Below, in pieces: positions 1-196 of a DNA stretch of 6,997 bases; the stretch's first letter is position 1, and the number at the start of each line of letters is the position of its first letter. The DNA comes from Gemmatimonadota bacterium (GTDB lineage: Bacteria; GCA-2686955). The position numbers and the translations under genes are program-made. The stretch is taken from positions 1 to 6,997 of the forward strand of contig NYZA01000047.1 of NCBI GenBank assembly GCA_002686955.1, in the 5' to 3' direction. The notes under the pieces are model-generated. The model was given only the letters and a program-made list of their open reading frames with translations. It had not been told where the DNA came from and did no database searches.

Positions 1-159
1 AGCCTGTTGCGCATAGACTTTCGAGCCCGGTATTCGAGTTCGTTTCGAGATCAAGGAGCCGAGTCCGCGGGAAGGCTGGTTGCCTTTCAAGGACTTGGCG
101 ACGCGGAGATCGGAACGAAGACGGATGCCGGGCGAAGCGAAGACTATGCGCAGCAGGCT
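1..159 (+). repeat. Long imperfect palindrome, possible structured RNA or ERIC/NEMIS-like repeat
   Basis: The stretch folds on itself around a five-base loop at 77-81. Hand pairing gives helices 1-16/144-159, 18-21/139-142, 25-36/122-133, 39-48/110-119, 51-52/106-107, 58-66/91-99 and 70-76/82-88, about 60 pairs in all. Seven are G-U wobbles when read as plus-strand RNA (7/153, 21/139, 31/127, 34/124, 45/113, 61/96, 71/87); on the minus strand these would be A-C mismatches. Positions 49-50 and 108-109 form a tandem G-A/A-G mismatch, also typical of RNA helices. The two arms are diverged, so this is not a fresh assembly inversion. The left edge coincides with the window edge, so the element may be longer. 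It lies just beyond the 3' end of the sulfotransferase gene and points towards it. I do not recognise the family. An ERIC- or NEMIS-type intergenic palindromic repeat, a non-coding RNA, or a bidirectional 3'-end structure are all possible. Confidence 0.75.
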
Positions 160-196
160 CGTAGATGCTACAAGATCGCGGCGGTGATCGATGCCC

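Follow-up and report, generated by a model that had tools for sequence, protein, structure and literature searches.

Palindromic intergenic repeats of roughly 100-170 bp, a size like that of the element considered here, include Correia/NEMIS and ERIC sequences, and NEMIS hairpins are substrates of RNase III; by description, both have other ends and other hosts than our element. The GTAG and CGTC families of REPs are intergenic palindromes as well, found in several phyla, and their G-T pairing has been taken as a sign of RNA function, but they measure 20-40 bp, carry a tag at one end and, for the GTAG type, are tied to RAYTs, unlike the present element (PMC3733652). A published precedent is MITEPye1 from Paracoccus yeei, an ORF-free intergenic MITE of the IS1182 type, 159 bp long, with 18-bp ends, short direct repeats and a long RNA stem-loop (PMC11578231). 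Within the IS1182 family, IS1272 acts on stem-loop targets, and some members target palindromes or stem-loops (PMC5678879).

The window analysed here, 6,997 nucleotides, is the whole of contig C47 of a Gemmatimonadota genome (hereafter G000). Its position 1 is therefore an assembly break, and the start coordinate of the hairpin found there is set by the end of the contig and not by that of an element. The hairpin itself, proposed by a sequence-only reading, was confirmed: the plus strand of positions 1-170 folds at -106 kcal/mol, against -60 +/- 4.1 for shuffled sequences (z = -11.2, equalled by none of 200 shuffles), the minus strand folding more weakly (-73.9 kcal/mol). In its minimum-energy fold, 1-159 forms 62 pairs (55 Watson-Crick and seven G-U), has no A-C opposition and closes on a five-base loop, so that the earlier counts (about 60 pairs, seven G-T and no A-C) were essentially right, while purine-purine oppositions had been put at five with one tandem G-A/A-G and the fold has seven symmetric ones, two tandems among them. 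The consensus of the subfamily, with arms aligned in a gap-tolerant way that does not favour wobble, gives seven or eight G-T against one or two A-C. The claim that no gene explains the stretch was upheld, and the element has no protein family (Pfam) match. What did not stand was its extent (1-159), as internal copies run two bases further on each side. The complete element measures 163 bp (GGAGCC...GGCTCC), is almost wholly palindromic with 18-bp terminal inverted repeats at each end, and lies between TA dinucleotides, internal copies being bounded CTAG-GAGCC...GGCTC-CTAG. The copy in the window starts at the third base, its initial GG and the left TA falling outside the contig, and ends in G where other copies end in C. 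Its features are the following.

1..161, plus strand: copy of the MITE, 161 of 163 bp, from blastn matches in its own genome, with bounds taken from internal copies
1..16, plus strand: left terminal inverted repeat, bases 3-18 of GGAGCCTGTTGCGCATAG, the full repeat being 18 bp as at the ends of IS1182-family elements
53..58, plus strand: 5' half of the internal-loop motif, AAGGAG in the window, recognised by comparison with other groups
77..81, plus strand: terminal loop of five bases in the predicted fold
100..106, plus strand: 3' half of the internal-loop motif, GACGCGG in the window (AACGCAG in other groups)
144..161, minus strand: right terminal inverted repeat, reading CTATGCGCAGCAGGCTCG on the plus strand (consensus CTATGCGCAACAGGCTCC)
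162..163, no strand: TA of the right target site, a direct TA duplication being inferred from other copies

A search of the genome for copies, suggested earlier, points to a repeat family, with dozens of sites. The stretch has 41 blastn matches in G000, a figure that rests on 40 scored of 89 candidates and in which two halves of one copy may count twice because many copies stop at contig ends, and 41 in G001, the genome of another genus of the same family. A safer count is that of left junctions, at least 34 in G000 and 35 in G001, most of them at CTAG. The flanks of the copies are unrelated to each other, as for a dispersed multicopy sequence, and the element accounts for many contig breaks in its source genome. 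Among other sequences searched, viral contigs gave four matches, none of which is the element palindrome, and plasmids gave no element match.

What happens to the target upon insertion can be approached through the junctions that deviate. In G001, five of the 15 left junctions without TA have their altered dinucleotide repeated at the right junction (TC, AA, CA, CA and TG), against 1.5 expected by shuffling (p about 0.006), and since these matches are direct rather than inverted, they are what a target duplication predicts and are not attributable to repair between arms. In G000 alone no such matching deviant duplications were seen. The outer C/G of the site varies more often than the terminal G/C (12/82 vs 3/82, p = 0.03), which fits a duplication of TA within CTAG better than one of four bases. 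Judged from these junction sequences, the best-supported duplication would thus be at least TA inside CTAG, with four bases possible. The target site seems to include, in several copies, the TAG stop codon of the adjoining gene, although the gene calls come from a crude codon model.

IS1182-family transposons carry the same 18-bp ends as the element, GGAGCCTGTYGCGCATWG. When GTDB genomes were scanned for TAGGAGCCTGTYGCGCATWG, at least 98 stretches were found and, among the matches listed, the records are labelled Acidobacteria, Cyanobacteria, Gemmatimonadetes, Myxococcales, Planctomycetota and Deltaproteobacteria. One complete IS1182 transposon with these ends was found, in a member of Thermoanaerobaculia (L187), where two 18-bp ends, one of which has two mismatches, are separated by 1.72 kb, bordered by CTAG, and enclose a gene for a 500-aa transposase that scores 364 bits against NF033551 (IS1182; cutoff 270) and also matches PF05598 (DUF772), PF01609 (DDE_Tnp_1) and PF13751. 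A dozen further loci have IS1182-like transposase frames near the identical 18 bp and a CTA flank, the cyanobacterial 18-bp matches mostly resemble the left ends of similar IS1182 elements, and IS1182 elements coexist with palindromes having the same ends in the Acidobacteria bin WY1.bin89 and the cyanobacterium LacPavin_MAG_64_39. No IS1182 transposase was found in G000 or G001, but at about 84% completeness of both genomes this negative result carries little weight. We consider it very probable that the window element is an IS1182-type MITE; of the three options offered earlier, that of a mobile palindromic repeat was therefore correct, the type being an IS1182-family MITE instead of ERIC or NEMIS.

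Two other classes of mobile DNA were weighed. Duplication of TA within CTAG is what would lead one to an MITE of the IS630/Tc1-mariner type, which nevertheless seems very improbable because the genome contains no PF13358 (DDE_3) match, its matches to IS630 models are partial and concern short HTH-type frames without these ends, and every transposase found with these ends is IS1182-like. That the element is a REP or REPIN mobilised by a RAYT (Y1) transposase is very improbable too: it is a palindromic intergenic repeat and G000 has one Y1_Tnp gene, but Y1_Tnp is absent from G001 in spite of its many copies, the element is far longer than the 20-40 bp of REPs, and it has symmetric CTAG ends with terminal inverted repeats of the IS1182 kind instead of a GTAG-type tag.

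Compared with its precedent, the IS1182-type element described here is similar by description to MITEPye1 in size, intergenic position, lack of an ORF, IS1182-like 18-bp ends, short direct repeats and stem-loop, but is present in dozens of copies as opposed to one to three per chromosome, folds at -106 to -144 kcal/mol as opposed to a reported -48, and best supports TA within CTAG where 4-bp repeats were reported (PMC11578231). IS1272 belongs to the same transposase family as the elements with these ends, but it replaces its stem-loop target without duplication, whereas the present element sits at CTAG with TA apparently duplicated (PMC5678879).

Because frame 2 is open in G001 copies and a length of 165 bp is divisible by three, a coding origin was weighed, with insertion in frame as known from the palindromic elements of Rickettsia. 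It was rejected: of the 38 copies checked, L102 alone shows an unambiguous open frame through the insertion site with coding signal to either side, and Pfam gave no match.

Same-ended palindromes are also present beyond these two genomes. Those of 162-163 bp were found in Planctomycetota OFTM79 (L210) and uncultured CALHGQ (L213, L157 and L178), and those of 178 bp in WY1.bin89, clean3599 and a Myxococcales bin; these phylum assignments come from metagenome bins made of short contigs, and mis-binning may explain part of the near-identity of the 178-bp element between bins assigned to two phyla. An internal-loop motif, AAGGCG opposite AACGCAG, is kept at a nearly constant position although the stems have largely diverged. 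AAGGCG lies at element positions 55-60 in G001, L210 and L213 and at 54-59 in the 178-bp group, while AACGCAG, which L178 lacks, ends 52-55 bases from the other end of the element; the corresponding halves in G000 copies are AAGGAG and GACGCAG. Within positions 19-54 of the arms, 18 of 32 paired bases are common to L210 and L213, which differ on both sides at 12; G000 and G001 have only 9-10 of 29-30 in common with either. A covariance model, another check that had been proposed, was built from G000 and G001 and found L210 with 81 bits and L213 with 78, the score of an unrelated palindrome from the same genome being 49 bits. The 37-49 bits obtained for the 178-bp group and for L133 indicate palindromes only, since that control reaches 49, and membership of the 178-bp group, which does not exceed the control, rests on its ends and motif. 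A full-length motif pattern run against 386 diverse genomes retrieved G001 only, the pattern being exact and therefore missing even G000.

The motif makes it possible to orient the palindromes independently of their mismatches. With arms aligned without favouring wobble, the motif excluded and four groups oriented by it, G-T to A-C oppositions number 7:1 in G000, 9:0 in L210, 10:0 in L213 and 0:2 in L158, taken for the 178-bp group, whereas purine-purine to pyrimidine-pyrimidine oppositions number 6:0, 3:0, 2:1 and 9:1, respectively. Pooled over the four groups, the ratios are 26:3 (p = 1.5e-5) and 20:2 (p = 1.2e-4), p values that are optimistic because the groups share some ancestry. A G-T excess is absent from the 178-bp group (2:3 in L191, besides L158) and from a cyanobacterial palindrome with these ends (L204, 8:8). 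It is possible, although we find it somewhat doubtful, that no strand selection was involved, the one-sided mismatches having been frozen by chance in a few founders and arm-to-arm conversion having produced the covariation described below. Copies of one group do have their mismatches in common through descent, and the 178-bp group and the cyanobacterial palindromes without bias are as this scenario would have it. It is harder to reconcile with the bias running in one direction (G-T to A-C 26:1) in three groups whose paired bases mostly differ and whose orientation comes from an independent motif, and with a purine-purine bias that points the same way, even though L210 and L213, with 18/32 identical arm pairs, are not fully independent.

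A second reading of the bias is that the MITE carries a structured RNA, its plus strand being transcribed and its hairpin and internal loop selected as an RNase III site, an RNA-binding site or for transcript insulation. Consistent with this, the plus strand folds better by 25-35 kcal/mol in G000, G001, L210 and L213, G-U and purine-purine oppositions are in excess, the motif has stayed in place while the stems changed, and wobble pairing in REPs was interpreted likewise (PMC3733652). However, we regard it as rather unlikely: copies whose plus strand lies downstream of a gene are in no clear excess (35 vs 27), folding of single-stranded DNA would yield the identical bias, and the comparison with Rfam proposed at the outset matched no family, at the gathering score or in loose-threshold searches. 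In addition, changes at paired sites that are private to one copy are without bias (19 of G-U type vs 21 of A-C type), and were rejected as evidence of RNA selection; the window copy thus need not be a functional RNA. The argument from G-T against A-C with which the sequence-only reading began fares well for the family, as the bias recurs in two further motif-oriented groups, and fails for single inserted copies.

Arm covariation, on whose presence the earlier interpretation depended, is strong, with 98.2% of cells paired over 14 copies and 48 two-sided cells vs 17 in shuffles, but it is not proof of RNA function because arm-to-arm repair in a palindrome also yields it. Such conversion predicts compensation within single copies, and this was seen for ten of 74 private changes (e.g. 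in L082, L084, L088 and L095), in accord with the chance-founder scenario. Rare alleles were also compared with widespread ones, copies without the partner base being omitted. Alleles found in a single copy comprise 17 G-U, 16 A-C, 29 other, ten compensated and two broken on both sides, while those in at least four copies comprise eight G-U, one A-C, three other and seven compensated. Changes that keep pairing thus stand to those that break it as 27:47 in single copies and as 15:4 in the shared class (p = 0.0015), the contrast of G-U with A-C alone (17:16 vs 8:1) giving p = 0.06. Inserted copies look neutral, decaying as ordinary DNA, whereas source copies appear to have passed a filter for folding, which may concern a single strand: G-U and compensated changes were those that spread, and A-C and other breaks mostly did not. 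Whether this amounts to strand-specific selection on the folding of spreading copies is, in our estimation, an even call.

In the reading that we favour, positions 1-163 are very probably a copy of a non-autonomous, gene-free transposable element that entered a CTAG site and duplicated TA at the least. It would be moved in trans, now or formerly, by an IS1182-family DDE transposase recognising its ends, which we infer from transposases found with these ends in other genomes, none having been found in the source genome. Source copies that spread would have been filtered for the long hairpin, probably on the strand reading AAGGCG...AACGCAG; the filter is seen statistically and its cause is presumed. 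Most likely the hairpin would have a role, either extruded as DNA or transcribed, in the mobility of the element or in its tolerance by the host, action on stem-loops being already reported for IS1182-family transposases, and inserted copies, that of the window included, would then drift as plain intergenic DNA. An importance for spread of one folded strand, as RNA or as single-stranded DNA, is suggested. More tentatively, and with the chances rather against it, these MITEs might form a scattered, possibly cross-phylum family in which the conserved unpaired motif (AAGGCG opposite AACGCAG), located some 54 bases from the end, is recognised in the plus strand once folded, as RNA or single-stranded DNA, and is needed for IS1182-type spread; we found no structure-guided step of such kind described in the literature for IS1182-type transposition. 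An MITE is an ordinary, known kind of mobile DNA. What is unusual is a strand-oriented folding bias together with an internal-loop motif common to palindromes whose stems have largely changed, which turns the use of a folded strand by IS1182-type transposition into a testable question. The case also shows how selection on source copies is told from the decay of inserted ones, and represents a trap for RNA discovery based on covariation.

Several minor observations concern the element and its surroundings. A longer variant in G000 (L035, L024, L060, L061 and L063) has about 76 added bases after position 99 (AAACCGAAGCCATGGATGGCGG...GGCGCCCCGTC), which hold a GC-rich hairpin of their own. Inside an element copy, at about 780-830 of L028, sits yet another small hairpin, the third kind seen (GGGTTCGCGCAAGAAT...ATTCTTGCGCGAACCC), and L065 has a related motif. 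Two loci of G000 (L116 on C232 and L118 on C62) have short HTH-type frames like the N-terminal part of IS630 transposases, and no catalytic domain was found in the genome. In the window, a sulfotransferase-like reading frame (assigned by eye) occupies 197-1000 on the minus strand and ends 33 bases from the target site of the element; BatA/DUF58/MoxR-like frames and an alanine racemase-like frame lie past it. Another palindromic repeat, unrelated to the first, has one of its ends (CTAG-CCCGGATTTCTCACCAACTTTCGTCGCGAGGCGGCGCA) at positions 1025-1066; this second repeat has 46 matches in G000, and its CTAG end is often adjoined by copies of the 163-bp element. In full copies of the second repeat, of about 180 bp, one strand folds much better than the other (-141 vs -112 in L259).
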